IMG/VR virus record: IMGVR_UViG_3300027754_005987 | Span: 45,205-109,204 of that record | DNA length: 64,000 nt | Strand: one strand, 5' to 3' | Source: a virus | Shown here: piece by piece, positions 28,865 to 45,450 of the stretch | Layout: every line of letters begins with the position of its first letter | How positions within the stretch are numbered: the first letter of the stretch is position 1 | Notes under the pieces: model-generated | What the model saw: the letters and a program-made list of their open reading frames with translations, nothing else | Told to the model about the DNA's origin: nothing | Database searches by the model: none | Program-made: the position numbers and the translations under genes

Positions 28865-29818
28865 TTATTTTTTAACTTTATCATCATATTTTTTATCCAA
28901 TACTTTAACTCTATACTCTTCTAATATTGACACCCCATTTGTTTCAATATCAGCACTAAATTTAATCACATAATGGCCATTAAACTCAACAATTTTTTCA
29001 AATTTTAAATTGTTATATTCGTATTCTAAAAAATCATTAACACCAATAGCTTTATATGTTATAAAACCAACTTTTTTAATATCTAGCATCGATGAACTAT
29101 TTGGATTAACTATGGCCTTTTTAACCTCGCTAATGAATAGTCTGGTTGTCCTAATAAACTCATCTGGATACATACTAACATAAAACTCTAAAAGTCTCTT
29201 AGAATCGCTTATTTTACGTATGTGTAATTTCTTTGTGTATTTTTCAAGTTCAAATTTAGGTAATGTTTCTCTTTCAATAATAATTGGCAATTCTGTTTTA
29301 TGAGATGCAAAATATTCGTTACCGCTAATTTCACCATGGCTTGCGCTTATGGCTTCACCAGCATCATTATAATTTATTTCAGCTTCATCTAATAATTTTA
29401 TATAATCATTGGCCATAGCATCACTACTACCAATAATTATTTCTGAATTATCAACAACCATTTCTAATATATAGTTATCTGATGGTTCTACATTTACCTT
29501 TTTTAACCCAGATTTATTGTCGGTTTTTTTTGTTTTTACAATAGGCATCCCATCATTGTCATAACCAATTATTTCTGAAGATGTATTTTGTGTTTCTTGT
29601 AAAATTTTATACATTCTCCACCGTAAATTTTCAACTTCTTGAGTAACAACAGCATTCTTTAAAGAATGCAATAATGTTGCAGCATCTTTTTCGTTAACTT
29701 TATTTATGTCAGATTCTAATTGTTCCCCTTTTTGGGAAAACGAATTTTTTTCAACATTTGCTAAGGCTAATGATAAGATAGCTATTTTTTGTTTAAACCA
29801 TTTTTTTAAATCAATCAT
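28865..29818 (-). CDS. Hypothetical protein
   Basis: 317 residues. Helical N-terminal half with WFKQKIAILSLALANVEK at 7-24 and RWRMYKILQETQ near 87; the C-terminal 150 residues are alpha/beta (KLHIRKISDSKRLLEFYVS, then GHYVIKFSADIETNGV). Not recognised. Its start overlaps the 3' end of the GT17-like gene by four bases (ATGA-type), so it is transcribed with the glycan island although it shows no enzyme motif. Confidence 0.6.
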   Translation of the reverse strand: MIDLKKWFKQKIAILSLALANVEKNSFSQKGEQLESDINKVNEKDAATLLHSLKNAVVTQEVENLRWRMYKILQETQNTSSEIIGYDNDGMPIVKTKKTDNKSGLKKVNVEPSDNYILEMVVDNSEIIIGSSDAMANDYIKLLDEAEINYNDAGEAISASHGEISGNEYFASHKTELPIIIERETLPKFELEKYTKKLHIRKISDSKRLLEFYVSMYPDEFIRTTRLFISEVKKAIVNPNSSSMLDIKKVGFITYKAIGVNDFLEYEYNNLKFEKIVEFNGHYVIKFSADIETNGVSILEEYRVKVLDKKYDDKVKK

Positions 29819-30669
29819 TTAATCATATGTTTATATTTTTCTAAATTATCCAATATGTATTTTGGATAAGTTTCGTCTATTTGAACTGGTGTTAATTGAC
29901 CTCTAAAAAATGGGTCGATATTATTATTAACATTATTATCTAAACTATTTAAAACATAACTATTAACTAAATCTCTAGCTGAATAAGATAATAATTTTGT
30001 TTTTATCATTTCGTTACCACCTTGAAAACTAAAATGCCACCCACCATTATCAATTTTATTACTTAAAGATTCATCACCTCTAACTTCATTAAATGATAAG
30101 TCTTTTATGTTTTTATATTTTGAAATTTTTGAACCGTACCAATCAGTTTGTTTTAATAGATTTATATAATAATAATAAGTTAATTGATTTAAAGAATATA
30201 TTGTATTATCAATTGATAACTCATTTATTTTTTCTAGCAACTTTGGATTTGGTATTTCGTCTGCATCAGATATGATAATTATATCATCATCAGAACATGA
30301 TATTAATGGTCTTCTAACACACTCTTTTTGAAAGAAATCTCTACCGTAATCTGGTTGTGTTGCTCTATTAAATCTATTAGTTTGTTTCACAACAAAATTA
30401 AATATGTCATTAAGTGTTTTGTCTTCACCATAATTTAAATTAATAAAATCACTAGGTGTGTCGTACACTTTATAATGTATTATTTTATCTAAAAATTTAG
30501 AATATCTTTCTTTATTTTCTTCAAAATAAAAAGGTTTTTCCTCACCAGAATGAGTAATACTAGATTCAACTATAACAAAATAATCAACATGTTCATATAA
30601 AACATTTAACCTAATTTCAAGTATCTCTAATTCATTAAAAAAATTAAAACAATCGTATATTTTTCCCAT
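29815..30669 (-). CDS. Family 17-type glycosyltransferase
   Basis: 284 residues. The GT17 pattern is clear: MGKIYDCFNFFNELEILEIR at the N-terminus, YFVIVESSITHSGEEKPFYF at 30-49, FFQKECVRR near 112 and the DxD motif IISDADEIPNPKLL with D135/D137. GT17 enzymes add beta-1,4-GlcNAc in eukaryotes; bacterial and viral members have other or unknown acceptors. Last glycosylation gene in transcription order, overlapping the unknown gene downstream and abutting the FkbM gene upstream by one base. Confidence 0.85.
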   Translation of the reverse strand: MGKIYDCFNFFNELEILEIRLNVLYEHVDYFVIVESSITHSGEEKPFYFEENKERYSKFLDKIIHYKVYDTPSDFINLNYGEDKTLNDIFNFVVKQTNRFNRATQPDYGRDFFQKECVRRPLISCSDDDIIIISDADEIPNPKLLEKINELSIDNTIYSLNQLTYYYYINLLKQTDWYGSKISKYKNIKDLSFNEVRGDESLSNKIDNGGWHFSFQGGNEMIKTKLLSYSARDLVNSYVLNSLDNNVNNNIDPFFRGQLTPVQIDETYPKYILDNLEKYKHMIK

Positions 30670-31409
30670 TATAAAATTTTAAATATCAAATGACTTACAT
30701 CATTATTTAGTTTTTTGTTAATACCGAATATATTCCCACCAGTACCAGTTGGTGATATTGTGTTATCGATAAAATCAATTATGTTATTATCAAGTTTAAC
30801 TAAAGATTTATTAAAATCAATATTATGTATGTTATTATTTAAAATAACCCCAAGTAAACTAGGTTCAATCATTAAATAAAAATCAAAATTATCTAATAAA
30901 TCAACGTATTGTTTAATTCCACCACTATATTCAACTTGAATATATGACACCTTATTTTCAAATTTGATTGTATTAATACCACCATTTATTACATTATAAT
31001 CAAGTCCTTCTACGTCTATTTTAATAAAATCAATATTATTGATTTTATTATCTTTGACATATGTATCTAAAGTTCTTAATGAGTATCTTTCACCATAATC
31101 TATGGGTGGAACATACCAATGTGGTATAAATGATTGAGTATTACTATAATATACGCAATCATCAGAATTTTTATCCGATAACCCAAATTCATTTAAAATT
31201 AATTTGTTTTTTGGTAATAAGTTAATTTTATCTTTTATTGATGTTAGCGCATCGATAAATGGTTCAAATAAATGATATTCCACATTTTGTTTTATTTCAT
31301 AAAAATATAAATCATCACGACATCCAACATCAAACACTATTTTAAAATCTTTACTCATTCGTTTATAAATTTCCAATTCATTATTTGGAATTTCGCTATA
31401 TTCACCCAT
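30669..31409 (-). CDS. FkbM-family methyltransferase
   Basis: 246 residues. SAM-binding start FKIVFDVGCRDDLYFYE at 22-38, a LFEPF strand-2 motif near 48, and the FkbM signature RTLDTYVKDNKINNIDFIKIDVEG around 105-130. Such enzymes O-methylate sugars or glycolipids. Within the glycan island a likely task is capping or tailoring of a phage-made glycan. Stop and start overlap its neighbours by one base or one-base gaps, so it is fully embedded in the operon. Confidence 0.85.
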   Translation of the reverse strand: MGEYSEIPNNELEIYKRMSKDFKIVFDVGCRDDLYFYEIKQNVEYHLFEPFIDALTSIKDKINLLPKNKLILNEFGLSDKNSDDCVYYSNTQSFIPHWYVPPIDYGERYSLRTLDTYVKDNKINNIDFIKIDVEGLDYNVINGGINTIKFENKVSYIQVEYSGGIKQYVDLLDNFDFYLMIEPSLLGVILNNNIHNIDFNKSLVKLDNNIIDFIDNTISPTGTGGNIFGINKKLNNDVSHLIFKIL

Positions 31410-31410
31410 A

Positions 31411-32322
31411 TTAAATTATATTTTTAATTCTATAATATTCATTAGCCTCATTTTTACATGTTTGATAATCAAATAAGTTACCTTCTCTATCCATATATGT
31501 AAAACACCTTGTATAAGCGTCACCTGTTGCCCAATACCCATCACTAACATTATGTCTGGCCCAATATTTTGGTGCGATAATTTTATTTACATTTATATTT
31601 AACCATGCTGCCCACCAACCAAATGTTGAATTTGATATAATTAACCATTTAGCTTGATTAACAACATAATAATCAAAACCAACATCAACATGTACCGCTT
31701 GAATAGGGAATGGCATAAAACTATTGGCGCATTGTACATCATCGGTAATTAATAAAAATCGCATATTAGGGTTTAAAGATAACATATGGTTAACAGCATC
31801 TCTCCAATATTCTCTTCGTAACAAAACATTTGGGATGTTACGATACTCTCCACCTCTAAAGTTAATAACACATAAATTATCATCTAAAGTAACACCCATT
31901 TCAGATAATAAATTATCATAAACTATTTTAGATTCTTCTTTTATCTCAAACCATTTTTTTATATCTTCTTTTCTATCGATAATATAGTCTTCTGACTGAT
32001 ATATACCACCTTTAGCTCCATTATGACCTAACATAATAGTATTATCACCAATACTATATAAAGACTCATTTAACATTGTTATATTAACTTCATCAACATG
32101 GCGAATTGTTTTCCACAGTTCATGAAATTCAGTTGTTATGTTTTTAACCTCTTTACCAAAATCAACATTCATAAACGTCATTTGGCTTTGTCCGTTAAAA
32201 TAATCGTGACTAGGATTTGGGTTAATACCCCATTCGTAACCTATTTTTTCTGCAATAGTTCTGCATACGGCATATTGCCACATATGGTTACCTAGATTTC
32301 CCGTTAAGTTAGTACTAATCAA
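31411..32322 (-). CDS. Family 11-type fucosyltransferase-like enzyme
   Basis: 303 residues. GT11 motifs: TGNLGNHMWQYAVCRTIAEK at 7-26 (GDP-binding Gly loop), INFRGGEYRNIP near 160 (variant of HVRRGDY) and ISNSTFGWWAAWLN near 230. GT11 enzymes transfer L-fucose in alpha-1,2 linkage. The R-R-G-D motif is altered to FRGGEY, so donor or acceptor use may differ. Its start overlaps the end of an endonuclease VII-like gene by four bases. A second GT11 gene with the canonical motif is at 40560. Confidence 0.82.
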   Translation of the reverse strand: MISTNLTGNLGNHMWQYAVCRTIAEKIGYEWGINPNPSHDYFNGQSQMTFMNVDFGKEVKNITTEFHELWKTIRHVDEVNITMLNESLYSIGDNTIMLGHNGAKGGIYQSEDYIIDRKEDIKKWFEIKEESKIVYDNLLSEMGVTLDDNLCVINFRGGEYRNIPNVLLRREYWRDAVNHMLSLNPNMRFLLITDDVQCANSFMPFPIQAVHVDVGFDYYVVNQAKWLIISNSTFGWWAAWLNINVNKIIAPKYWARHNVSDGYWATGDAYTRCFTYMDREGNLFDYQTCKNEANEYYRIKNII

Positions 32323-32756
32323 TTGTTTAAGTATTTAATTGCTTCTGATAGCAAATCTTTATTGTCTTTAAATCTTCCTAAACCATTGTTACAACTAAGG
32401 CATAATAAACCTCTTACTTTGCCAGTTTCATGATTATGGTCTACAGCTAAAGCTCTATCAAATTCAGTTTGATGCCTGTGGCAAATAGCACAAGATTCAT
32501 TTTGTTTTTCTAATAGTTTGTTATAATCTTCAAAAGTTATATCAAAATCACGTACTAAGTTTAAATGTTTAACTCTATCTTTATTAGCCTCATGCCAAGC
32601 TTTGCTTTTTGCGTTAATATGATTTTTATTATTTTTATAATAATTTTTTCTTTGTTCTGGATTAGCAGTTTTCCAAGCAACAATTCTAGCGTCTATTTTA
32701 TCTTTATTTGCTTTACGATATTCCTTATCATAAATAGATTTTTCTTCTTTTGTCAT
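32319..32756 (-). CDS. Endonuclease VII-like HNH nuclease
   Basis: 145 residues. Basic N-terminal region of Lys/Asn-rich helices, then the recombination endonuclease VII domain: CAICHRHQ near 91, RALAVDHNHETGKVRGLLC near 101-119 and SCNNGLGRFKDN near 120. The CxxC...CxxC zinc pair and DHNHxTGxxRGLLC are diagnostic. T4 gp49 resolves packaged DNA branches, but free-standing versions like this are usually homing genes. Its place inside a sugar-gene operon, with a 78-base gap upstream, suggests insertion as a mobile gene. Confidence 0.88.
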   Translation of the reverse strand: MTKEEKSIYDKEYRKANKDKIDARIVAWKTANPEQRKNYYKNNKNHINAKSKAWHEANKDRVKHLNLVRDFDITFEDYNKLLEKQNESCAICHRHQTEFDRALAVDHNHETGKVRGLLCLSCNNGLGRFKDNKDLLSEAIKYLNN

Positions 32757-32834
32757 TTTAATATTTTAAACTTCAATTTTGTTTTTTGTTATCATTTTAA
32801 TTGTATTTTATTATTGTTATTGCATATTAACTAT

Positions 32835-33641
32835 TTATAACGCTATATTTCGATAATTTTCTAATGTGTTAGTCGTATCTAAGAATTGTCTTTGAGGAGC
32901 AAAAGCATAATGACTAAATAAAGATTTACCAAAAATAATATTAGTTGTGTTTAATTCTTTAGGTTTATCAACAGATAACCAATTTTCTTCAGAAATACCT
33001 ACTTCACCGTTAAACGTTTTAAATGTTTTACCTAACCATGAAATACTATTAATAGAACACCTTTCAAAATATTTCAATTCCCAATTGTCAATAAAAAAAT
33101 CACTTATTTTATTTTCAGTCATTTTTTCAAAAAAGTAATTATGTAATGAGAAACAAAAATCTGGGTTTCTCCATCCATTTTCATCTAAACAATCATAATT
33201 AACTGATGGTAAGTTTTTTATAATACCTTTTCTTTGGTATATGTTAGTAACAATTGCATTATTTAATATATTACCATAAACTAAAAAATATTGTTCATTT
33301 GCTAACCTAAAGTCGAATAAATCCTTTATTGAGTTTTTATTAATATATACTATATCGTCATCTAATCTCAAATATACTGAATTTTCGTCAATACATTTTT
33401 TAAAAAAATTACAGATAGTTGCTGTGTGGCTTCCATTTGGGTCAATAGGTATTTCAGAATACTGTAGTTCTATATAGTCATAATCTTTAACTAGATTTTC
33501 AATATAATTAATGTCTTCATCATTAGTGGTGTTAACCCAAATTACCCATTTATCAAATTCATCTTTACATTTATATAAATTCTTATGTAATATTTCAAGG
33601 TATCTTTTCCTACCTGCTGGTGTTACTATTATTTTTTTCAT
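32835..33641 (-). CDS. Glycosyltransferase, GT-A type
   Basis: 268 residues. Start MKKIIVTPAGRKRYLEIL followed by FDKWVIWVNTTN, then the acidic metal motif VYLRLDDDIVYI at about 89-100. These are GT-A features, but the closest family is unclear. A conserved-looking C-terminal motif SLFSHYAFAPQRQFLDTTN follows. The 5' end overlaps the end of the galactopyranose mutase gene by 32 bases in another frame. Likely cytoplasmic; substrate unknown. Confidence 0.72.
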   Translation of the reverse strand: MKKIIVTPAGRKRYLEILHKNLYKCKDEFDKWVIWVNTTNDEDINYIENLVKDYDYIELQYSEIPIDPNGSHTATICNFFKKCIDENSVYLRLDDDIVYINKNSIKDLFDFRLANEQYFLVYGNILNNAIVTNIYQRKGIIKNLPSVNYDCLDENGWRNPDFCFSLHNYFFEKMTENKISDFFIDNWELKYFERCSINSISWLGKTFKTFNGEVGISEENWLSVDKPKELNTTNIIFGKSLFSHYAFAPQRQFLDTTNTLENYRNIAL

Positions 33642-34725
33642 TATGAATTGTTTTAGTTTTTTTTATTGCTGACGCTATTATTTGGTGCATGTCATAGTAT
33701 TTATATTCTGCTAATCTACCACCAAAGTAAATATTTTTTAATTGTTTAGTTTCTTCGTTGTAATTGGAATATCTTTGATTATTTATTTCATCATTAACTG
33801 GGTAATATGGTTCAGTAACATTTGCTTTATATTCTGTAGGATATTCAAAAGTTACCCAAGTAACGTCAGATTCTATTTTTTCAAAATGTTTATGTTCTAC
33901 AACTCTTGTAAATGGTGTTTCAATATCAGTATAATTCATCATTGCTGTACCTTGATAGTCATCACACATTATTTTTTTATGTTCAAAATTAGTTGTTTTA
34001 TATTCTAATTCACCATATTTGTAATTAAAAAATTTATCAATAGGTCCAGTGTAAATTAAATTATCATATTCTGGTAACTCATCTTTGAAATAGTTAGTAT
34101 TAAGTCTAACTTCAATATCAATTAATAACTTTTCAAATATTTGTGTGTAACCCCCAATAGGTATTCCTTGGTATTTATCATTAAAATAGTTATTATCATA
34201 TGTAAAACGAACAGGTAATCTTTTTATTATTTCTTTTGGTAAATATTTAGGTTCTTTTTTCCATTGTTTTGATGTGTAACCCTTAATTAATTTCTCGTAT
34301 ATGTCAGTACCAACTAATTTTATGGCTTGTTCCTCTAAATTTTTTGGTTCTTTAATGTGGTCACTTTGAACTTTAATTATTTTTTTTGCTTCCTCTGGGT
34401 GTGTAACATTCCATAATTTTGAAAATGTCCACATATTAAATGGTAATGAATAAATCTCATCTTTATAATTAGCAACAGGCCTTAACGTAAAATCATTAAA
34501 AGAGACAAATTGATTAGTCCATTTCCAAACCTCTTCATCAGAAGTATGAAAAATATGTGGACCATATTCGTGTATGTTAATACCATCTTTATTTGATGTG
34601 TAGCAATTACCACCAATATGTTTTCTACTTTCAATCACACATATTTTATAACCAAGTTTATTCAATTCATAAGCGCATATTGAACCAAATAACCCAGAAC
34701 CAACTATTAAAAAATCATATTTCAT
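33610..34725 (-). CDS. glf: UDP-galactopyranose mutase
   Basis: 371 residues, full length for the family. FAD-binding FLIVGSGLFGSICAYEL at 5-21, GGNCYTSNKDG near 39, EYGPHIFHTSDEEVW near 53-67, PVRFTYDNNYFNDKYQGIP near 166-185 and a C-terminal GRLAEYKYYDMHQIIASA. It converts UDP-galactopyranose to UDP-galactofuranose, so the phage can supply Galf for a glycan independently of the host. It lies among glycosyltransferases, one of which is probably a galactofuranosyltransferase. Confidence 0.95.
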   Translation of the reverse strand: MKYDFLIVGSGLFGSICAYELNKLGYKICVIESRKHIGGNCYTSNKDGINIHEYGPHIFHTSDEEVWKWTNQFVSFNDFTLRPVANYKDEIYSLPFNMWTFSKLWNVTHPEEAKKIIKVQSDHIKEPKNLEEQAIKLVGTDIYEKLIKGYTSKQWKKEPKYLPKEIIKRLPVRFTYDNNYFNDKYQGIPIGGYTQIFEKLLIDIEVRLNTNYFKDELPEYDNLIYTGPIDKFFNYKYGELEYKTTNFEHKKIMCDDYQGTAMMNYTDIETPFTRVVEHKHFEKIESDVTWVTFEYPTEYKANVTEPYYPVNDEINNQRYSNYNEETKQLKNIYFGGRLAEYKYYDMHQIIASAIKKTKTIHNEKNNSNTSR

Positions 34726-35665
34726 CTCTAAATATTATTTTTTTTATTTGTTCTAATTTTTTAAATTTATCTTTATACATACTTCCAGATTTAAAATGAA
34801 ATATAGGAGATTTTTCAATCGGTTCACCTAAAACTTGTATAAAATCACTATCTACTGGATTGTCAAAATCAAAAGGGTCTATATACAATTCTTTTATTTT
34901 GATTATTTTTTCTAATACATAATTTTCATAATTAGTGTTATTTTCTTCATATGGAAAACTTTTAACACCCATTTGAATACCTTCATTTATTTTTCTATTT
35001 TCATGGTTTAAGTTTGTAGTAAATCCAATACCCCCATTTAACCCTGAATATAAAACATCACCAATTAATTTATGGTGTGTCCACATTTCAAAATAACCAA
35101 CATCATTAATGTCAATATTTTGTATAAATTTATATGTTTGACCACCAACATCTGATATACCACGAATAAAATCCCAATCAAAATATTGTCTTAAATTTTT
35201 TTCATTTATATATTCATTATCGAATAATAAAATACCATCCCACATATAGAAATAACGAAAAGTACCATCATGTACTACATGAAATGGTGTATCTCTATAT
35301 TGTGGGTTAAAATATATTTTTTTATCAGACATTAATTTTTTATAATTTAATTTATTAATAAAAAACATGTCTGAATGTATTAACATTAAATAATCAGTAC
35401 TTTTACTTTGAATAGTTTCTCTATACCAAGCATATTGTTCAACAACATATTGAGGAAATGCAGTTCTTACACCATCATATTGTATAATTTCTATGTTATT
35501 ATTAACACAAATTGTTTTAATTTCATCAGCATGTGCATTTGAAGCGTTTATTACTATAAAATCAGTATTCCCATCATCCATGTGTTTTTTAAATGAATCT
35601 ATTTGTAATTGCAGATATTCTGGATTTTTATCTGGAAATGTATAAATTTTTAATCTTTTTTCCAT
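34715..35665 (-). CDS. Glycosyltransferase-like protein
   Basis: 316 residues. N-terminal LKIYTFPDKNPEYLQLQID, then TDFIVINASNAHADEI and the likely metal motif LMLIHSDMFFIN near 100-111 (HSD in the place of DxD). The middle contains MWDGILLFDN and GISDVGGQTYKF. This looks like a GT-A protein of a family I cannot name. Its start lies eight bases after the upstream stop, and its end overlaps glf by 11 bases. Confidence 0.6.
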   Translation of the reverse strand: MEKRLKIYTFPDKNPEYLQLQIDSFKKHMDDGNTDFIVINASNAHADEIKTICVNNNIEIIQYDGVRTAFPQYVVEQYAWYRETIQSKSTDYLMLIHSDMFFINKLNYKKLMSDKKIYFNPQYRDTPFHVVHDGTFRYFYMWDGILLFDNEYINEKNLRQYFDWDFIRGISDVGGQTYKFIQNIDINDVGYFEMWTHHKLIGDVLYSGLNGGIGFTTNLNHENRKINEGIQMGVKSFPYEENNTNYENYVLEKIIKIKELYIDPFDFDNPVDSDFIQVLGEPIEKSPIFHFKSGSMYKDKFKKLEQIKKIIFRDEI

Positions 35666-35673
35666 ATTTTTTT

Positions 35674-36360
35674 TTATTTTTTAGTTTTATAATTTGGGTT
35701 GAAGATGTAGCACTCTAATCGTTCAATTAACCATGGTGCTATTTCGTTTTCTTCTAATAAATTAACAATTTCACGATAAAAATCTACTGACCTTAGATGA
35801 ATATGTTCTTTGCTGGCACCAAAATGACCACCAGGCATAAATTCATAAATATTTGGTCTAGGACCATCAAATAATATATCCCAGTATGCATCAACATTTA
35901 TCTTTGGGTTATGGTCGTGTGGCATACCATTGCTATAACAAGCGATTATTTTACCGTTACCATGATGTTGTGATGGATACATTGTATGCATCATACCACC
36001 TTTTTCTGACGGTATTGTTATTGTGTTAAAATGATAACCGTAATAACCACCAATATTTAATGCTGCACGATTTTTAAAAGTTTCAACATCACTATTTACC
36101 ACGTAAATTAAATCTTCCCAATGGTCAAATGGATAATCTTGAACAAAAAATGTAAAATCAGATAGATTATTATAGTTTTTATAAATGTGATTAAAAAATG
36201 TATGAACACACCTACCAAAATTAGGTTCAATTAATATTTCATCTTCACCCAACGGTAAAATATTACCTTTACGATATATCGTTTTTTTTATATCTTTATT
36301 TAAATCAGATAACCAATTAATTGGTTTATCATAGGCTGCAATAACGATTTCTTTACACAT
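35674..36360 (-). CDS. DUF3431-like protein of the glycan island
   Basis: 228 residues. IVIAAYDKPINWLSDL at 5-20, EPNFGRCVHTFFNHIYKNY at 45-63 and FTFFVQDYPFDHWEDL near 69-84 match the DUF3431 pattern I remember (a GT-like family with N-G-R-E-x-H-T and VFLQG.PFDH motifs). These proteins accompany glycosyltransferases, but the activity is not established. An FGASKEHIHLRS motif follows. It begins 58 bases from the next gene upstream. Confidence 0.65.
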   Translation of the reverse strand: MCKEIVIAAYDKPINWLSDLNKDIKKTIYRKGNILPLGEDEILIEPNFGRCVHTFFNHIYKNYNNLSDFTFFVQDYPFDHWEDLIYVVNSDVETFKNRAALNIGGYYGYHFNTITIPSEKGGMMHTMYPSQHHGNGKIIACYSNGMPHDHNPKINVDAYWDILFDGPRPNIYEFMPGGHFGASKEHIHLRSVDFYREIVNLLEENEIAPWLIERLECYIFNPNYKTKK

Positions 36361-36418
36361 ATTAATTTTATATTTATTATAACTTATAATTTAATAAAAT
36401 AAGTTAAAAAGTAAACTA

Positions 36419-37180: not shown

Positions 37181-37185
37181 ATTAT

Positions 37186-37839: not shown

Positions 37840-38530
37840 ATTTACTCATTAAAATATTTGATTCATTATCTTTAACACTTTGAGGTGTTTTATCAGTCAA
37901 ACCATTACCATGTGTTCTATTTACAACTGTTATTTCATTAATTATTGTTGGTTTACCATGCTTTAAAAATAACCTGTAATAATATTCACAATCAACAAAC
38001 CAATTTAAAGTTTCATCAAAATAAATCAAATCTTCGTTTTTAATTGTTAAATTACTAGGATTACCTAAAGTATTATTTCCACTCCATATATTTTCACTTA
38101 ATTTTGGATGATACAATCTGTAAAAAGTAAAACCATCATTACTATGATAAAAAGTAGTTATTAACCATTTAATATTTGGGTTATCGTTAAGTATCTCATA
38201 TTGTGACAATAAAGAGTTTTCATCATATAAGAAATCATCTTGAAATAAAACTTTAATCCATTTACCTTTACAGTTTTTAATAGCATTGTTTAAATTTGGT
38301 GAAATAAAACCCCTACCTTTATCATTACTATAATATTTAATATTTAATTTATCAACCCATTCATTATATACATTTTTAATTGTATTATCTAAACTATGGT
38401 CCGATAAAATAACTTCAAAATCTTTAAAATTTTGTTGTTGTAATATATTAAAATTATGTTGTAAGAATTCAACACCCTTTCCTTCATAACCATAAGCTGG
38501 TATCGCAATCGAAAAAAACGGATTTGTCAT
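37826..38530 (-). CDS. Family 2-type glycosyltransferase
   Basis: 234 residues, typical GT2: FFSIAIPAYGYEGKGVEFL at 5-23, FKDFEVILSDHSLDN near 35-49, GRGFISPNLNNAIKNCKGKW near 73-92 and the metal motif VLFQDDFLYDENSL near 94-107. A C-terminal NWFVDCEYYYRLFLKHG matches the ED/DxxY acceptor-side helix. Cytoplasmic, inverting enzyme by family. It is one base from the SDR gene upstream. Confidence 0.85.
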   Translation of the reverse strand: MTNPFFSIAIPAYGYEGKGVEFLQHNFNILQQQNFKDFEVILSDHSLDNTIKNVYNEWVDKLNIKYYSNDKGRGFISPNLNNAIKNCKGKWIKVLFQDDFLYDENSLLSQYEILNDNPNIKWLITTFYHSNDGFTFYRLYHPKLSENIWSGNNTLGNPSNLTIKNEDLIYFDETLNWFVDCEYYYRLFLKHGKPTIINEITVVNRTHGNGLTDKTPQSVKDNESNILMSKYGKA

Positions 38531-38531
38531 A

Positions 38532-39215
38532 TTATATAACAGTTTTCATTTTGGATATGTTCATTGATTGGTTTTTTGGAACATGTTCAGGTGTAAATGT
38601 TTTATTAACTGATTTAGTTCTAGAAGCCATCTCATACATCGTTTTAGTTTCAGTACCAACATTATATAAACCATTTGCATTAGCATTAATTAATTTAATT
38701 ATTAAATCTGAAATGATATTTACATAATCAAAATTACCTATCTGGTCAATCCATGCGCCATCGTATGGGAATGGTGTTGGTTTATGTGTGCATCTAACGA
38801 TTAGATAATCATTAGCTTGTAACTGAACCAACCCATCCCCTAACAATTTTGTATAACCATACCAATTATTACAATGCACTGGCACATCTTCTTCTGAAGC
38901 ATTATTTACTGAACTAGTGTATAAATAATCAGTAGATATATGTACTAACTTAATCGATTTTTCATTACAATAATCGATTAATTTAGACACAAAAGCATAA
39001 TTTATATCCCAATGACTTTGTTTATCTTTAGAATAGGTATCAGTATTTGCAATACAATTAACAATAATATCAGGGGTGTGTTTAAATAAAAAGGTTTCTA
39101 TTTTATTTGTGTCTAACCCATCTTTTTTTCTGGACATATAATTCCAACCAGTCTGTTTTATTATTTCACCACCTAACAATCCATCACCTAATACCAGAAC
39201 ATTTAATTTGTCCAT
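38532..39215 (-). CDS. RmlD-like sugar-nucleotide reductase (SDR)
   Basis: 227 residues. Rossmann start VLVLGDGLLGGEII at 6-19, PDIIVNCIANTDTYSKDK near 49-66, LVHISTDYLYTSS near 92-104 and the catalytic YGYTK near 120 (Tyr-x3-Lys). RmlD enzymes reduce dTDP-4-keto sugars; others act as 4-reductases on CDP-4-keto-3,6-dideoxyhexose. Its start overlaps the E1-type dehydrase gene by 13 bases, so the two may act in sequence, dehydrase then reductase. It is shorter than RmlD (about 290 residues) at the C-terminal substrate domain. Confidence 0.75.
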   Translation of the reverse strand: MDKLNVLVLGDGLLGGEIIKQTGWNYMSRKKDGLDTNKIETFLFKHTPDIIVNCIANTDTYSKDKQSHWDINYAFVSKLIDYCNEKSIKLVHISTDYLYTSSVNNASEEDVPVHCNNWYGYTKLLGDGLVQLQANDYLIVRCTHKPTPFPYDGAWIDQIGNFDYVNIISDLIIKLINANANGLYNVGTETKTMYEMASRTKSVNKTFTPEHVPKNQSMNISKMKTVI

Positions 39216-40504
39216 TTTTCAGCAAAAATATTTTCAACGTAATTAAACACTTGTTCGTCATAATGTGGTGCAGCACCTAAGAAAAATACCTTATCTAACA
39301 CGGTGTTTGCTTTTGGATATTTATTAAAATCATCTAACTGTTTATATCCTGGATGTAGTAAAATAGAACCAGCGAAGTAGTTCCTAGTTTGTATATTATT
39401 TTCTTCTAAAAAAGAAACTAACTTATTTTTCAAAATTTTATCCTCACAAATAAACGGAGTACCAAACCAACAAGTATCAGATTTTCCATGGGTATGAACA
39501 CCACTTAACCCTTTAACGTGTTTTAATAAGATAGATTCAATAGTTGATTTGCTATGTTTTCTTTTTCTGTCAATTTCTTCAAATTTTTTCAACTGAACTA
39601 ATCCAATTGAACCCTGCAAATCCATAGGTTTAAGGTTATAACCCATATTCGTGAAAACATATTTATGGTCAATAATACCATCATATGAATCTAACCATTT
39701 ATCAAAACGATTTCCACAAGTACCACAAGATAACAAGTTAGCCGAACCAACACAAAAACAATCTCTACCCCACCAAGAAAAACTAGTAAATAATTTTTTA
39801 AGGTCAGCAATATTTGTACAACAAATACCACCCTCACCAGTTGATATGTGATGAGCAGGATAAAATGATGAAGACCAAGCAACGTAATAATCACTTAAAG
39901 GTTTCCCATCCCATTTAGAACCAAGACTGTCACAACTATCACCAACTAGTTTAATATCGTGTTTTTCACATAACGCTGTTAAAAAATCCATATCAGGCGC
40001 ATTACCTAATACAGGAGAAACAAATATAGCTTTTGTTTTAGATGTGATTTTTTCTTCTATTTTATGAATATCAAAATTAAGTGTGTCATATTCAATATCA
40101 ACAAATACTGGTACTAGATTATTCTGTACTAGGGTTGATATTGTAGTAGGGAAACCAACTGGTGATACAATAACTTCATCACCATCTTCCCAACCAAAAT
40201 ATTTTTTTAACGCAGCAATCAAAACTAAATTAGCAGAGCTACCAGAATTAACCATTTGTGCGTATTTAACGCCAAACATTTTAGCAAAAGCATTTTCAAA
40301 TTTATAAACATTTTCACCAGCAACAACCCATTTACCAGTAATAAATGTTGTTATTGCAGCCATAATTTCTTCTTCATCCCAATAAGGACCAGAATATAAT
40401 ACTTGTGATTTTCCTGGCACAAATGCTTGGTTATACAAATATTTAGGTTTATTTTCTTTAAGGTATTCAGTAAGATTACTTAATATTCCATCAATTTCTT
40501 TCAT
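39203..40504 (-). CDS. E1-type CDP-4-keto-6-deoxyhexose 3-dehydrase (RfbH/DdhC-like)
   Basis: 433 residues, full length for the family. It belongs to the DegT fold, with MVNSGSSANLVLIAALK near 84 and SSSFYPAHHISTGEGG at 211-226. The Lys that binds PLP in aminotransferases is His here (H218), as in E1/RfbH enzymes. Cysteines C191, C249, C251 and C260 (or C263) follow the known E1 [2Fe-2S] ligand spacing C-X57-C-X1-C-X7-C almost exactly (the last gap is 8 or 11). The reaction is PMP-dependent C3 deoxygenation on the way to 3,6-dideoxyhexoses such as abequose, paratose or tyvelose. CDP-glucose, its 4,6-dehydratase and the E3 reductase are not in the window and would be host-supplied. A host-type promoter lies just upstream. 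Confidence 0.88.
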   Translation of the reverse strand: MKEIDGILSNLTEYLKENKPKYLYNQAFVPGKSQVLYSGPYWDEEEIMAAITTFITGKWVVAGENVYKFENAFAKMFGVKYAQMVNSGSSANLVLIAALKKYFGWEDGDEVIVSPVGFPTTISTLVQNNLVPVFVDIEYDTLNFDIHKIEEKITSKTKAIFVSPVLGNAPDMDFLTALCEKHDIKLVGDSCDSLGSKWDGKPLSDYYVAWSSSFYPAHHISTGEGGICCTNIADLKKLFTSFSWWGRDCFCVGSANLLSCGTCGNRFDKWLDSYDGIIDHKYVFTNMGYNLKPMDLQGSIGLVQLKKFEEIDRKRKHSKSTIESILLKHVKGLSGVHTHGKSDTCWFGTPFICEDKILKNKLVSFLEENNIQTRNYFAGSILLHPGYKQLDDFNKYPKANTVLDKVFFLGAAPHYDEQVFNYVENIFAEKWTN

Positions 40505-40521
40505 GTGTAAATAATTTTAAA

Positions 40522-40552
40522 CAAATATACTATTTTTTAATTTAAAAAACAA
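40522..40552 (-). promoter_or_regulatory. Host-type promoter TTG-N20-TATATTTG
   Basis: On the minus strand TTG (40552-40550) and TATATTTG (40529-40522) are 20 bases apart, giving a leader of about a dozen bases to the ATG at 40504. It gives the dehydrase-to-29.8-kb part of the glycan island its own start. Confidence 0.8.
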
Positions 40553-40559
40553 TAGTTAA

Positions 40560-41324
40560 TTATATTTTTAACCAATTTTCAGGTATAACGTCTTGAGTGT
40601 CTTTATACCCAGCAGGTCCAAACCATTCTTCAGGTCCAATAACTTTTTTATTATCAGAAAAATTTAAATAAGCACCCCACCAACTAAAACTACTATTAGC
40701 TATTATATTATTATCACTTTTAACCATTAATATTAAATCATCAATTTCAGATTTAAAAGGTGAATACACAATATTATCCCCCTTAAAATTATCTTTAACC
40801 CAATTTATATCATCTGATATAAAGATAAAAATAGAATCACCAATAATATCCATAGCTTTTTTATAATATTCAATAGAACAAGGTTTATGGAAATTAGCGT
40901 TATTAATATAATCACCTCGCCTTACGTGAACTGAAGTAATTGGTAATGAATATTGTTTTAAATATTCATCAATAAATTCATTATTTAATTCATCAATAAA
41001 TAAATTTATCACTTCATTTTTATAGTCAATAAAATATTTTTCACTTTGAAACGACCCATTCAATAACATATCATTAACATAAGGTAGTTCATTATAAGAA
41101 AAACTAGGTTCATTATAAACACCAACATAATTATATTGGCTAACAATATTAATTTTTTTAAATATATTATCCCTATATTTGTTTGAAGTGTGTCCTTGTT
41201 GTGGTGTAAAGCACTGATTAAAATCAAACCCACTGATATCATTATTTCTTAACGCCAACGCATGTGCTGCCGCTATTTGAAACATTTGATTACCTAGACC
41301 ACCTTGTAATCTACAACTAACCAT
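40560..41324 (-). CDS. Family 11-type alpha-1,2-fucosyltransferase-like enzyme
   Basis: 254 residues with canonical GT11 motifs: QGGLGNQMFQIAAAHALAL at 7-25, SVHVRRGDYIN near 131-141 and IIANSSFSWWGAYLN near 205-219. HVRRGDY is the GDP-fucose motif. The second GT11 gene at 31411 is more diverged. Its start overlaps the upstream GT2 stop by one base. Substrate is probably a fucose-like GDP-sugar of host origin, since no GDP-fucose synthesis genes are seen here. Confidence 0.88.
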   Translation of the reverse strand: MVSCRLQGGLGNQMFQIAAAHALALRNNDISGFDFNQCFTPQQGHTSNKYRDNIFKKINIVSQYNYVGVYNEPSFSYNELPYVNDMLLNGSFQSEKYFIDYKNEVINLFIDELNNEFIDEYLKQYSLPITSVHVRRGDYINNANFHKPCSIEYYKKAMDIIGDSIFIFISDDINWVKDNFKGDNIVYSPFKSEIDDLILMVKSDNNIIANSSFSWWGAYLNFSDNKKVIGPEEWFGPAGYKDTQDVIPENWLKI

Positions 41325-42046
41325 TATCTAATTAATTTTTTATAAGGTGTTTTATTTCGTATTCTTACTGCATGGTTAGTAACCATAGACATATCTACTT
41401 TATGCTCATTTATTGGATTTTCAGCATTATAAACATAATTAACTTCAGTCATAAACCTATAATGTTCATCACCAGACATTTCTAACATAGGATACATAAA
41501 ACATAAATCACCACTCCATTGCCAGTAATCGCCATTCTCATCTTTTAAATCTTCTTCTTTTATATTTCGCCATAGGAAAGCCCTCCACGTTCTAATATGT
41601 GAAGCAGTAAAATTAACAGCTCTTAAATTATCAAAATTTGTTTGTTTTGACGAAAAACCTATTGCACCACCATGGTATCTGAAACTACCATTGGCAATCC
41701 AAACATTATCATCACTATATAAATCATTTATTCTTTTGAATACGTTTGAATCAGGTAAATAATCGTCACCATCAACTTCTATTAAAATTTCATTGTCTAG
41801 TATGTTTGAGTTATATCTTATAACTTTATCAAAATTACCAGCTTGGTATAGTTTTTTTTCGTTGTCATCTATCAAAATAAATCTATCGTCACCTTTAATC
41901 ATTTCTTTAACTAAAGAAACAGAATTATCTGTTGATAAATCATGTGTTATATAACAAGTAAAATCTTTAAATGTTTGACCCATTATTGAACCTAGGCATC
42001 TTTCAATATAATTTTCAGCATTATAAAATCCAGTTAAAATTACCAT
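41324..42046 (-). CDS. Family 2-type glycosyltransferase
   Basis: 240 residues. VILTGFYNAENYIERCLGS at 2-20, FKDFTCYITHDLSTDNSVS near 25-43 and the DxD motif EILIEVDGDDYLPD near 85-98 are standard GT2. The C-terminal part has WAFLWRNIKEEDL. It overlaps the next gene by one base and lies one base from the SDR gene upstream. Acceptor not predictable. Confidence 0.86.
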   Translation of the reverse strand: MVILTGFYNAENYIERCLGSIMGQTFKDFTCYITHDLSTDNSVSLVKEMIKGDDRFILIDDNEKKLYQAGNFDKVIRYNSNILDNEILIEVDGDDYLPDSNVFKRINDLYSDDNVWIANGSFRYHGGAIGFSSKQTNFDNLRAVNFTASHIRTWRAFLWRNIKEEDLKDENGDYWQWSGDLCFMYPMLEMSGDEHYRFMTEVNYVYNAENPINEHKVDMSMVTNHAVRIRNKTPYKKLIR

Positions 42047-42047
42047 A

Positions 42048-42731
42048 TTAATTATTTATATATTTTTTTATTATTTTATTTGTATACCCATTAGTTTTAA
42101 TATCTAAATTAGATATACTTTCATCAACTATTTCACTATTTTTAACGAGCCAATTATTATCGTTTTCATTAACAACAATCTTTATCGTTGATTCTTTATT
42201 TAAATGATTCGATATAATAGTAACCAAATCAAAAACACTTATTTTTTCAACATCAGATATGTTAATAACACTAGAATTAACTTTATCTTTGCAATAATTT
42301 ACTATATTGATTAAATCATCTATATCTAATAATGCTCGTTTAACGTTTTCAAATATAGTTATTTCATCATCTTTTAATATTGCGTTTTTTAAAAAATTAA
42401 CCAAATTGTTTTTATTACCATTTCTACCAATAATTTGTGGTACTCTAAAAATAATATAATTATTTGATTTATCTTTAATTATATTCTCAATTTCAAGTTT
42501 ATGGTTGTAATAATCATTATTTGATATGTCAGCTAATATACTGCTAAAATATATGAATTTTAATTCTTTGTTTTCAACTAATGTTTTTAAAACTAATTCT
42601 TTTTCTCTATTAAACTCATTTTGATTAGTTTGTTTTGAGTCTGAAACACCAGAAGCAAAGATAATAAAATCATCATAATTAATATCAGAATCTATAAATA
42701 CAGACGCTAATAAACCATTACCTATAATCAT
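42048..42731 (-). CDS. NAD-dependent epimerase/reductase-like SDR
   Basis: 227 residues. Short Rossmann loop MIIGNGLLASVF at 1-12, KFIYFSSILADISNN near 58-72 and the catalytic-type YYNHK near 74-78 (Tyr-x3-Lys), then IIFRVPQIIGRNGNKNNLV. This is a compact extended-SDR sugar-nucleotide enzyme; the substrate cannot be read. It is the second SDR of the island, besides the RmlD-like one at 38532. Confidence 0.75.
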   Translation of the reverse strand: MIIGNGLLASVFIDSDINYDDFIIFASGVSDSKQTNQNEFNREKELVLKTLVENKELKFIYFSSILADISNNDYYNHKLEIENIIKDKSNNYIIFRVPQIIGRNGNKNNLVNFLKNAILKDDEITIFENVKRALLDIDDLINIVNYCKDKVNSSVINISDVEKISVFDLVTIISNHLNKESTIKIVVNENDNNWLVKNSEIVDESISNLDIKTNGYTNKIIKKYINN

Positions 42732-43478
42732 TTATTTTAATACTTTTAATCTTTTACTAACATATAATTTATAATCAGTAATTATTTCATCAACACTAAA
42801 TAAATAATATAACCCAAAACCATTTTGTTTATTAAAACCACTTAATCTTTCAGCTCTAATTTTGTTTTTATAAATGTAATCATCTAACCCTAAAAATTTA
42901 TAATGTAACATTTTTAGAGAAGTATCAGTTGACAATCTAACATCACCAGTTGGGTTTGCATTATGACATCCAAAACCATAATTTATTTCATCAATTTTAT
43001 TACAATCAAACATCATCATTTTATCCAAAACTGGTGTTCTAACGCCTTCTTTAACTTTTTCAAGTATATTATCATCAGCTAATAAATTTAAATCCTCATC
43101 ACCAATCATATGATGACCTTCTGGCTTAAATATTGTTACACCATTATTAAACGATTCCTTTAAAAAAGTAATCATATCCTCATGATATAAAAACTCATCA
43201 GTATCGCCAAGTATAACATAATCAGCCTCACCAATACTAGTTTTCCATATGCTGTTTTTTATATTGATATGCACACCATCATGAAATTCACTATTAGAAC
43301 CAAATGTAATAACTTCAGTATTATCAAATGAATTAACTATTTCAACACTATTATCGGTTGATTTATTATCCAATATTGTTATCTTTTCACAAAAGGTTGA
43401 ATAGTACTTTATTAAATGAGGCAATATGTTTTCCTCATTATAGCATAAAAAATATGCATGTATTATAGGTTTTTTCAT
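42732..43478 (-). CDS. Glycosyltransferase, GT2/GT92-like
   Basis: 248 residues. IIHAYFLCYNEENILPHLIK at 5-24, ITILDNKSTDNSVEIV near 34-49 and the metal motif YVILGDTDEFLYHEDM near 87-102. The pattern CYNEE.ILPH...LDN.STD is typical of the Glyco_tranf_2_4/GT92-like group. A HNANPTGDVRLS stretch in the C-terminal half may bind the acceptor. Adjacent genes touch on both sides. Confidence 0.83.
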   Translation of the reverse strand: MKKPIIHAYFLCYNEENILPHLIKYYSTFCEKITILDNKSTDNSVEIVNSFDNTEVITFGSNSEFHDGVHINIKNSIWKTSIGEADYVILGDTDEFLYHEDMITFLKESFNNGVTIFKPEGHHMIGDEDLNLLADDNILEKVKEGVRTPVLDKMMMFDCNKIDEINYGFGCHNANPTGDVRLSTDTSLKMLHYKFLGLDDYIYKNKIRAERLSGFNKQNGFGLYYLFSVDEIITDYKLYVSKRLKVLK

Positions 43479-44266
43479 TATAAATTTAATAGTTTAATCC
43501 ACTCTTTAATTATTTCATCATTAGATAATTCTTTTACATCATGGTCAGTAGCTGAATTTCCGTAAAATTTTGTACCAGTAGTTTCACACTCATCTTTAAC
43601 CAAAGAAGCAACTTCACTTTTAGATGATAAGAACACAGCACCTACCATATCATAAACTTTTTGTTTATCACTTTCAAAACCATACTCAATAACATTATCA
43701 CTTATTAAAGGTTTAACAAATTTATTATAGTAATTTGGGTCACTAACATTACCAAATAATATAACTTTTTCATACCCTTCACTAAAAGCTCTTTGTATTG
43801 ATACGTGAGTCTGTTTATTTTCATCAAAAGAACCGATTACACCAGCTATTTTTTCATTCTCAGGTGTTTTATCCTTTTTAATTAAAACCTCTCTTAAATT
43901 AGGTATAATGGAGTATTTTCCATTATAACTAGAATGATAATCTCTTTGTTTTTCATTTAAGAAAACAACTTCATCCCAAAATTGTTTTATTTTACCAACT
44001 TCAAAAACATCTTTTTCATGGCATGATAAAATAACCTGTTTAGCGTTAGGTTTATTTGGTAATTGAATAAAATGACAAATTAAAGTATCATCATTATTTA
44101 TAGTTAATGTTTCATCTAACATTCCAGATTTACATTTATCTAAATGCCAAGTATGTGGCCCATAAAATGTTGTTTCAATACCAGCTTTATTTAAGGCATT
44201 GGTCAAATTTATAAAAGCAAATGTTGACCCCCCTTTATTACTCCAACCAGAAATTATCTTAATCAT
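43478..44266 (-). CDS. Glycosyltransferase, GT-B type, short
   Basis: 262 residues. SGWSNKGGSTFAFINLTNAL near 6-25 is the Gly-rich N-terminal loop of GT4-type enzymes, and KIAGVIGSFDENKQTHVSIQ near 140-159 with KVILFGNVSDPNYYN resembles the start of the donor-binding domain. The usual EX7E block is not clear and the protein is short for GT-B (about 350). A GT-B-like enzyme or a binding relative is the best guess. Overlaps both neighbours by one base. Confidence 0.7.
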   Translation of the reverse strand: MIKIISGWSNKGGSTFAFINLTNALNKAGIETTFYGPHTWHLDKCKSGMLDETLTINNDDTLICHFIQLPNKPNAKQVILSCHEKDVFEVGKIKQFWDEVVFLNEKQRDYHSSYNGKYSIIPNLREVLIKKDKTPENEKIAGVIGSFDENKQTHVSIQRAFSEGYEKVILFGNVSDPNYYNKFVKPLISDNVIEYGFESDKQKVYDMVGAVFLSSKSEVASLVKDECETTGTKFYGNSATDHDVKELSNDEIIKEWIKLLNL

Positions 44267-45450
44267 TATAGTGTTTCAATATATTGGTTAACAATGTTAT
44301 TAATATCTAATTTTTTTATCGCATCAATATCACCACTTAATTCAATAACTGACGATAATGGGTTTTCTTGAACACTAGTAAACAATCCATTTGTGAATTT
44401 GGTATTAACAATAGAAATACCATTGTATAGTTTATTCATATGTTCAATAATACCATCATCATATACATGGATGATATCAAAGTTATAATCTTTCACTTTA
44501 TAAAGCATGTTTGGTTGTGATGGAACATCACCATCTTTAGTTTTAAGAACCCATTTACCATCACCTAATGCAAATCCTGGAGGTTGCTGTATTGGCGCTA
44601 AATTAATACCGTTATTTTTAGCAATTGAACCTATCTTTCCATTTATGTTAGAACAAATAGTAACATCATGGTTTTCTTTTTTTAATTTTGATGCAATTTC
44701 TAACATTATATTACTTTTAGGTAAGGTATCATCAAAAGATAAACTAGTCATTAGTATTTTTAATTTTTCACCCTTTCTTAAGGTTTTTTTAATTTTTACT
44801 GGTAGGTTTTCTTTAAATGTTTCAGCGAAAATAATTCTATTTTTATCCCATGATTCATTTGTCATACCTATTGATTTATGGTTAACCCTAACAATTGTCG
44901 ACACACCTATTTTAACACCTTTTAAATAATTCTCAAAACAAAAAGTAACATCATAAAAATGAAAACCTTCTACTGATTCGTTAAAATTAGTTTTAAGTCT
45001 AGTTTTATCAACAGCAAAGAAAACACCATCAACAATCACAACTTCTTCTAATCCAAGACCTAAATCATCAGAATAAGCTGATAACCATGACTTACCTTCA
45101 TGTGTATGTTTTACTCTACCATACATTTTTCTTTTATCTTCCCACCATTGTCCGCTGCTAGCCATATATTTTGTACCAGCAACACCAATAACACCATATT
45201 CTGGATTTTTTTCAAACTGTTTTATCAATTTATTACCCCATTGTTTTGTTTCAATATTTAAATCATCATGACAAAACACAACGATGTTGTTTTTAGCCTG
45301 TTTTAACCCCTTATTATATGATTTTGTTAAGCTTTCACCATTATTGATAATCTCAATAACTTCAATATGTTTGTGAAGACCAGAAGACTTTATTAAGTGC
45401 TCTTTATGTTCTGGATTTGTTTTTCTAGTACAATATACAACTGTTATCAT
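44266..45450 (-). CDS. Fused glycosyltransferase: GT-A domain plus GT-B-like half
   Basis: 394 residues in two parts. Residues 1-215 are a GT-A domain: ITVVYCTRKTNPEHKEHLIK, INNGESLTKSYNKGLKQAKN, and the metal motif VVFCHDDLNIETKQW near 57-71. Residues about 226-394 begin KLKILMTSLSFDDTLPKSN and continue SNIMLEIASKLKKENHDVTIC, the N-terminal domain of a GT-B enzyme without a complete donor domain. The downstream gene also looks like part of a GT-B protein, so the two may form a split GT-B enzyme. First gene of the glycan island; no clear promoter was found upstream. Confidence 0.72.
   Translation of the reverse strand: MITVVYCTRKTNPEHKEHLIKSSGLHKHIEVIEIINNGESLTKSYNKGLKQAKNNIVVFCHDDLNIETKQWGNKLIKQFEKNPEYGVIGVAGTKYMASSGQWWEDKRKMYGRVKHTHEGKSWLSAYSDDLGLGLEEVVIVDGVFFAVDKTRLKTNFNESVEGFHFYDVTFCFENYLKGVKIGVSTIVRVNHKSIGMTNESWDKNRIIFAETFKENLPVKIKKTLRKGEKLKILMTSLSFDDTLPKSNIMLEIASKLKKENHDVTICSNINGKIGSIAKNNGINLAPIQQPPGFALGDGKWVLKTKDGDVPSQPNMLYKVKDYNFDIIHVYDDGIIEHMNKLYNGISIVNTKFTNGLFTSVQENPLSSVIELSGDIDAIKKLDINNIVNQYIETL

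Follow-up and report, generated by a model that had tools for sequence, protein, structure and literature searches.

We describe a hypervariable glycan-assembly locus in IMG/VR virus record IMGVR_UViG_3300027754_005987, an uncultured virus record of 109,204 bases that is itself a fragment. The 64,000 nucleotides analysed, bases 45205-109204 of that record, are called the window, and genes are named by their first window coordinate. The phage belongs to a lineage of large aquatic phages whose capsids are of the Gp23 type; Pfam identifies a Gp23 capsid protein, a T4-type portal and a prohead protease in its record. The original prediction of a glycan-synthesis island at 29815-45450 is confirmed, and the island occupies a fixed-position hypervariable locus between the glycosyltransferase gene 44266 and PhoH, whose content is largely decoupled from the flanking genes. 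The locus and its exchange among phages are well supported, and it probably serves to diversify the sugars carried by the virion or displayed by the infected cell. We read it as a modular locus that assembles glycans in a serotype-like manner with soluble enzymes of the cytosol and most likely decorates virion proteins; the acceptor we infer, and we put the probability of this reading at about 0.5.

The original prediction placed about 18 adjacent minus-strand sugar genes here, and this is borne out by 19 consecutive open reading frames (ORFs) at 29815-45450, all on the minus strand and counting in an endonuclease VII-like gene at 32319-32756. Nine of the 18 junctions are overlaps of 1-32 bases, six are gaps of 0-8 bases and three are gaps of 55-78 bases, so the overlaps are real and the statement that most junctions overlap was slightly overstated. 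Non-coding gaps total 207 of 15,636 bases, and this small amount of non-coding sequence, together with the long run of sugar enzymes, excludes a chance ORF pattern. The island shares its strand with a sigma-factor-like gene, which we count in favour of virion decoration. The island, its anchors and the neighbouring genes that recur below are as follows.

44266-45450, minus strand: left anchor, a GT2 (Glyco_tranf_2_5) domain with an N-terminal remnant of a GT4-like domain, 394 amino acids (aa) (PF13712, 1.2e-33; alignments)
43478-44266, minus strand: compact GT4-like transferase, 262 aa, which accompanies the truncated 44266 enzyme (no Pfam match)
42732-43478, minus strand: GT2-type transferase, Glyco_tranf_2_4 (PF13704, 1.2e-10)
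42048-42731, minus strand: short-chain dehydrogenase-like sugar enzyme (sub-threshold RmlD, 0.0017; no NCBIfam match)
41324-42046, minus strand: GT2 transferase (PF00535, 5.2e-14)
40560-41324, minus strand: GT11 transferase (PF01531, 1.3e-24)
39203-40504, minus strand: E1/RfbH-type CDP-4-keto-6-deoxyhexose 3-dehydrase (PF01041, 1.2e-71; PDB 3bcx, 8e-73)
38532-39215, minus strand: RmlD-like reductase, short, 227 aa (PF04321, 6.1e-21; under the NCBIfam rmlD cut-off)
37826-38530, minus strand: GT2 transferase (PF00535, 5.4e-10)
37186-37839, minus strand: DUF5672 glycosyltransferase-like protein (PF18922, 9.5e-20)
36419-37180, minus strand: possible transferase (no family in Pfam, PHROGs or NCBIfam; relatives in 2 of 76 loci)
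35674-36360, minus strand: DUF3431 protein (PF11913, 3.2e-10)
34715-35665, minus strand: possible GT-A transferase, by eye (no family in Pfam, PHROGs or NCBIfam; relatives in 3 of 76 loci)
33610-34725, minus strand: UDP-galactopyranose mutase, Glf (PF03275, 3.3e-72; above the TIGR00031 cut-off)
32835-33641, minus strand: glycosyltransferase-like protein (phrog_4447, 1.1e-5)
32319-32756, minus strand: endonuclease VII/HNH-type gene within the island (PF02945, 1.1e-26; in 0 of 76 relatives' islands)
31411-32322, minus strand: GT11 transferase (PF01531, 3e-10)
30669-31409, minus strand: FkbM-family methyltransferase (PF05050, 5e-12; above the TIGR01444 cut-off)
29815-30669, minus strand: GT17 transferase (PF04724, 2.3e-23)
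28865-29818, minus strand: p28865, conserved, bounding or splitting the locus (no family or PDB structure match)
27961-28824, minus strand: PhoH, right anchor (PF02562, 6.7e-60; position in relatives)
25766-26911, minus strand: recurring GT4-like transferase outside the island (model with a predicted local distance difference test score, pLDDT, of 88.8; best PDB match 8xsg, 2e-15)
24928-25734, minus strand: recurring GT2 transferase outside the island (PF00535, 8.1e-9; homologues in relatives)
47394-49808, minus strand: recurring GT-B transferase split by a LAGLIDADG intein at about 48130-49280 (PF14528 and a weak Intein_splicing match)
45557-46132, minus strand: dUTPase, conserved, just upstream of the locus (PF00692, 1.1e-27)

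Most of the enzyme labels first given to these genes have Pfam support. Two need revision, as the supposedly GT92-like 42732 is a Glyco_tranf_2_4 protein and the second short-chain dehydrogenase (SDR), 42048, has only its sub-threshold RmlD match. The island proteins 32835, 34715, 36419 and 43478 have no Pfam family; we take 43478 to be a GT4 enzyme from its GGS and E-x7-E motifs. A PHROG search returned nothing for nine of ten proteins, the exception being the weak glycosyltransferase match of 32835.

The hypervariability of the locus is seen in its relatives. Three scans of viral loci were made, with the 47394 protein (28 loci), with an alignment of p28865 (best 80 of 87) and with an alignment of 44266 (best 80 of at least 548); a best-80 selection favours nearer relatives. 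Merging by exact overlap left 116 groups, a stretch of a 642-kb phage included, and 91 of these held a 44266 homologue longer than 300 aa. Both anchors were contained in 44 groups. For the other 47, PhoH was searched in 35 records (34 matched) and 32 stretches were taken, with G030 and G034 dropped as look-alikes and 12 groups left out. The measured set is therefore 77 loci (76 relatives and the window) anchored on 44266 and PhoH, in which island genes are ORFs of at least 100 aa. Merging GT2 domains that are at least 98% identical reduces the 76 relatives to 68, with L212 and L228 outside the comparison; L212, L216 and L228 start within the 44266 gene, and their left edge is approximate. A count of 23 "empty sites" among 61 loci, in which the 44266 homologue abuts p28865, was rejected when islands were found on the other side of p28865, and the anchors were reset to 44266 and PhoH for this reason.

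Without p28865, locus length ranges from 895 to 21,897 bases, with a median of 8,775 in the relatives and 14,489 in the window, which 11 relatives exceed. Each locus holds 1-26 genes, and none of the 76 relatives has an empty one. The conserved gene p28865 is on the right, adjoining PhoH, in 35 of the 77 loci, on the left, adjoining 44266, in 21, in the middle in nine, and was not found in 12. In the first set of 61 loci, 232 ORFs lie between 44266 and p28865, and a Pfam tally of 183 representatives of these has GT2, sugar epimerases, RmlD/GDP-mannose dehydratase-type enzymes and methyltransferases, including FkbM, as its commonest families; UDP-GlcNAc 2-epimerase and hexapeptide transferases are also common, and nucleotidyltransferases and DegT stand lower down. 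The tally covers the top 25 of 82 and of 73 families, under-represents islands to the right of p28865 and includes many ORFs with no match shown, and from it the island content appears to be commonly sugar-related, which is a statement about the commonest families and not about every gene.

Island content varies largely independently of the genes around it. Sharing was measured in the 66 loci that have five or more genes upstream, a gene being shared at 35% identity and 70% coverage, and relatedness was measured as identity of the 44266 GT2 domain. In 13 near-identical pairs, 0.92 of flank genes and 1.0 of island genes are shared. At 90-98% GT2-domain identity the shared fractions are 0.89 for the flank and 0.34 for the island (6 pairs), at 80-90% they average 0.77 and 0.18 (20 pairs), and at 70-80% they are 0.65 and 0.14 (263 pairs). 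Below 70%, flank sharing also falls, to only 0.39-0.51, versus 0.01-0.08 for the island (1,843 pairs). Individual relatives illustrate both directions. The locus closest to the window by GT2 domain, L012 (0.82), shares 0.8 of the flank and 0.0 of the island, and L218 (0.71) and L227 (0.60) share 0.67 and 0.62 of the window's island, each with 0.4 of the flank.

One block is also shared beyond the lineage. The 642-kb phage LR756502 encodes an E1 enzyme 86% identical to that of the window, within a 2.5-kb colinear E1-RmlD-GT2 block of 72% nucleotide identity, and E1 of the lineage members L211 and L212 is, at 85%, no nearer to the window's. Neither LR756502, which lies outside the lineage, nor any other phage-collection record matched p28865, 25766 or 44266. 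The endonuclease VII-like gene 32319 may have come along as a mobile passenger, or it may itself drive exchange.

Each window island gene is present in 0-22 of the 76 relatives: the GT11 gene 40560 in 22 (counted as best-matching family), the GT2 gene 41324 in 16, the E1 family in eight, Glf in four and the endonuclease in none. At least five window island families occur in eight relatives. Gene pairs stand in window order in 77 of 78 cases in L212, 65 of 66 in L211, 28 of 28 in L057, 21 of 21 in L220 and 10 of 10 in L050, and more loosely in L227 (52 of 55), L218 (48 of 55) and L209 (40 of 45). The conserved order that the original prediction proposed to look for in related phages is thus present, in that families recur in largely the window's order among phages that share island genes. 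Its description of the island as one co-adapted operon does not hold, as the content is a mosaic exchanged among phages at a fixed site, with one block common to the 642-kb phage; co-adaptation appears to hold for some steps, such as the fusion described next, and not for the island as one unit.

Four relatives (L209, L211, L212 and L218) encode a 44266-type protein whose C-terminal part corresponds to the 43478-type enzyme, at 59-66% identity over nearly the full length of the latter. Because the two are fused in these phages, the predicted 43478 and 44266 enzymes most likely work one after the other. The 44266 enzyme of most relatives has a more extended GT4-like half and reaches about 550 aa. 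As a separate gene, 43478 occurs in 12 of the 77 loci (11 relatives and the window; a tally of 12 of 76 relatives took in L212, a fusion), always adjoining a short 44266 enzyme, whose length in these loci is 361-418 aa and in which the second half of the GT4-like domain is missing. Of the 62 loci without a separate 43478-type gene (L212, L216 and L228 left out), three (L074, L094 and L106) have a short 44266 enzyme too, and there the gene after it looks GT2-like by eye. A sharp recombination boundary at about residue 217 of 44266 was considered and lost support: conservation falls gradually, and 68 of 75 C-terminal parts fall in one homology cluster.

Around the variable site, four glycosyltransferases recur in the relatives: 24928, 25766, 44266 and 47394. 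The three outlying transferases named in the original prediction do exist, 24928 as a Pfam GT2 enzyme and the other two by their modelled GT-B/GT4-like folds, as neither 25766 nor 47394 has a Pfam glycosyltransferase match. Homologues align across the relatives for both genes, with 43 sequences for 25766 (42 relatives and the window's) and 47 intein-free ones for 47394. The modelled structures, one for 25766 itself and one for a 47394 relative without the intein, are of high confidence and match GT-B/GT4-like enzymes. The best solved fold for 25766 is AmGGT (8xsg, 2e-15; second entry 8xsh, then 1.7e-9), at 18% identity. According to the available text of PMC12159676, AmGGT shares more than 50% identity with ApAgt, an Actinobacillus enzyme that lengthens glucose chains on adhesin proteins. 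We treat this modelled likeness of 25766 to AmGGT and ApAgt as a lead only, and count it in favour of virion-protein decoration.

The 47394 intein, which carries the LAGLIDADG domain and is not mentioned in the original prediction, interrupts the gene at a GGS/SH motif that is invariant in the 47 intein-free relatives. Inteins are usually located in nucleic-acid enzymes. Among 94 ORFs homologous to 47394, 11 are at least 633 aa and may carry insertions too. Intein-like insertions are also seen in a large-terminase-like gene at window 5842-8289 (Intein_splicing match), in thymidylate synthase at record C1:42044-44362 (772-aa ORF, split match) and in a ClpA/B-like gene at record C1:36548-40141 (LAGLIDADG match).

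The products of the locus are predicted to be soluble. A Kyte-Doolittle scan of 874 island ORFs (at least 100 aa, 77 loci) found none with two or more hydrophobic segments and 18 with one; in a control set of four bacterial loci retrieved through E1, three encode proteins with 8-9 segments. The initiating transferase (PF02397), flippase (PF01943) and polymerase (PF04932) families matched in none of 15 records (the window's and 14 relatives), and their controls matched in 9, 13 and 9 of 14. The original statement that no flippase, polymerase or carrier-lipid gene was seen therefore stands for these records and ORFs. The absence of such families and of multi-helix ORFs makes direct decoration of a soluble acceptor plausible, and we count it, with the predicted solubility of the island products, in favour of virion-protein decoration. 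A complete polysaccharide exported by phage proteins appears, within the reach of these tests, not to be the product.

The nearest solved structure to the product of 39203, the island's E1-type enzyme, is CDP-4-keto-6-deoxyglucose-3-dehydrase (3bcx, 8e-73), with ColD ranking behind. Aligned to its relatives, 39203 has a His at the position of the aminotransferases' pyridoxal phosphate (PLP) lysine as well as a Cys cluster, which is the residue pattern of RfbH (E1); we take these cysteines to be those that bind the Fe-S cluster. The protein scores 354 bits against an NCBIfam RfbH equivalog cut-off of 423 and so falls short of it. In related loci, the family takes three forms: His with Cys in L032, L054, L055 and L137 (by alignment), His without Cys, ColD-like in that respect, in L057, L176, one L188 copy and a second L032 copy, and Lys as in aminotransferases in L096 and the other L188 copy. 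These three forms indicate that the sugar chemistry varies among phages. Scanning genome contigs with E1 returned only four relatives, with a Bacteriovoracaceae metagenome-assembled genome at the top at 55% identity, and pointed to no host.

The GT11 family includes fucosyltransferases. PF16363 (GDP-mannose dehydratase) matched in eight of nine records and strongly, at about 1e-115 or better, in four relatives. These strong matches (G006, G011, G018 and G031) lie within about 2 kb of PhoH, and from their sequence the enzymes could be a source of GDP-fucose for the GT11 enzymes. No strong PF16363 match was found in the window's record, where the only match is sub-threshold, to the RmlD-like gene. 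PF00483 matched in one of nine records, the window's not among them. Elsewhere in the record, beyond the window, lie an RmlC-type 3,5-epimerase and another GT2 gene, at C1:17458-18015 and C1:21180-21914.

We propose that the four recurring transferases would start a short cytoplasmic glycan on a concurrently made phage protein, such as a capsid, tail or fibre protein, and that the island enzymes would add variable outer sugars to this core. For the window, these outer sugars may comprise galactofuranose (Glf), GT11-type deoxysugar residues, a deoxysugar made by E1 and the SDRs, and O-methyl groups (FkbM), with sugar nucleotides drawn mainly from host pools. Swapping a block would alter the outer glycan, much like a type change in O-antigen or chlorovirus glycans, and the likely benefit would be evasion of host factors that bind the virion, or changed attachment. 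The fuller form of this proposal is a glycotype system, in which the four soluble transferases build a core glycan on a virion protein, needing neither a lipid carrier nor the glycosylation machinery of the host, and a recombination hotspot lets phages, huge ones outside the lineage included, swap the cassette for outer sugars, whereby virions would change surface type as bacteria do with O-antigen; this form we hold tentatively, at somewhat less than an even chance.

Several observations weigh against decoration of virion proteins. Neither an oligosaccharyltransferase nor a protein-specific initiating enzyme was identified in our searches, and AmGGT itself, in the available text of PMC12159676, uses oligosaccharides and not glycopeptides. 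GT4 folds are common to enzymes with many acceptors, and fold matches leave the acceptor unfixed; a DNA alpha-glucosyltransferase entry stands at rank 43 in the fold list of the 47394 relative. A weak correlation between island sharing and relatedness persists (Spearman 0.26; 2,775 pairs, 75 loci), which indicates that exchange is frequent yet not random. In addition, soluble transferases could use host lipid-linked intermediates as acceptors without any phage membrane protein, and similar pelagimyophage islands are read as host O-chain modification in the available part of PMC7029224.

The last two points also speak for the main rival, in which the phage enzymes alter the host's O-chain, or some other glycan on its surface, during infection, leading to receptor change or a superinfection block. 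This is the reading given, in the same part of that article, to the glycosyltransferases of the pelagimyophage host recognition cluster. The set of E1/RfbH, Glf, GT11 and FkbM enzymes is, moreover, typical of bacterial surface glycans. Against it stand the 15 records that lack initiating, flippase and polymerase families and the 874 island ORFs that lack a multi-helix protein. The four transferases that stay constant despite island turnover would better fit a core supplied by the phage, and a lytic cycle may be short for replacing surface glycans. We consider host-surface modification a serious possibility that falls well below even odds.

Building glycans on modified bases of phage DNA, as in DNA hypermodification, is improbable. 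Asp at the Asn site of thymidylate synthase marks dCMP hydroxymethylases. Thymidylate synthase (PF00303) matched in 12 of 16 records. In five of these 12, the window's and those of four relatives (four distinct sequences), the motif was read and is PFN, with the canonical Asn. Tet_JBP matched in none of 15 records, with the positive control likewise unmatched. Thus, of the direct protein or DNA decoration originally suggested, a soluble acceptor is plausible and DNA is disfavoured by a canonical thymidylate synthase where it was read. Hypervariability across the lineage, with up to 26 genes, would also be unusual for DNA modification. Such modification is known in other phages such as T4, the rank-43 fold entry would fit it, and the moraphage paper (PMC12619734), in its available text, mentions DNA modification for core transferases. 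The remaining alternative, that the site is a hotspot for any cargo and holds sugar genes by happenstance, is the least likely of all: it could draw on the homing-type endonuclease gene in the window's island, the GIY-YIG/NUMOD3 genes in other islands and the many island ORFs with no assigned family, but the commonest Pfam families among the 183 representative ORFs (first loci set, top 25 families each) are sugar-related and gene order is largely kept among distant phages.

Decoration of virion proteins can be set beside several known systems. Bacterial O-antigen and capsule loci combine a fixed site with variable sugar-nucleotide and transferase content and switch type by recombination; unlike the locus described here, they have flippase, polymerase and initiating transferase families, which were not found in the 15 records. 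The capsid N-glycans of chlorovirus PBCV-1 resemble the proposed model in their virus-encoded transferases, conserved core, independence of organelles and multidomain enzymes (PMC7826918, in the text available), and differ in that PBCV-1 is a eukaryotic algal virus whose glycan and acceptor are chemically established. The host recognition cluster of pelagimyophages and cyanomyophages is likewise hypervariable, lies in the structural region and carries glycosyltransferases and deoxysugar enzymes, but VrlC and gp14 flank it and it contains tail fibres, as far as the available part of PMC7029224 describes it, whereas this locus lies between a GT2 gene and PhoH; no fibre gene was identified in the window's island. 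Synechococcus phage RB11-B (PV261925.1) has E1/DegT, GT17, GT11, FkbM and GT2 genes in one run. It is a cyanophage with annotated cytidylyltransferase and dTDP-4-dehydrorhamnose 3,5-epimerase genes, both of which the window's island lacks.

A further likeness is to the moraphages (PMC12619734, Perez-Hernandez et al. 2025), which in the available text are, like the phages studied here, aquatic and large, mostly with predicted Bacteroidota hosts, and have capsid, portal, protease, dUTPase, PhoH, sigma-factor and ClpA groups as well as four glycosyltransferase core orthogroups. We liken these orthogroups to the four recurring transferases by number, and not by sequence. The marker groups present in more than 80% of moraphages were found in the window's record by Pfam, and not through VOGs, with sigma-70 region 2 just under the cut-off. 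A difference is the lysyl-tRNA ligase VOG00439, which occurs in 24 of 28 moraphage genomes; its proxy PF00152 was unmatched in 11 of 13 records here, with two weak partial matches (one over the cut-off together with its neighbours) and a control of 14 of 14. The synteny plots of the moraphage paper show variable islands, left there for study, and the part of the text available describes no glycan locus in them.

Phage sugar genes are usually listed singly as auxiliary genes. Among the literature matches listed on these topics, no other title or abstract describes such a locus, which is no proof of absence. Here, one site-specific locus is filled in every compared relative, usually with a different set of genes, which points to selection for phage-side glycan diversity. 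The locus is also relevant to the variable islands that the moraphage paper (PMC12619734), in its available text, leaves for study. If the acceptor is the virion, the locus would represent, among viruses of prokaryotes, an equivalent of the chlorovirus capsid glycans, and host defences and attachment would have to keep pace with variation like that of capsules.

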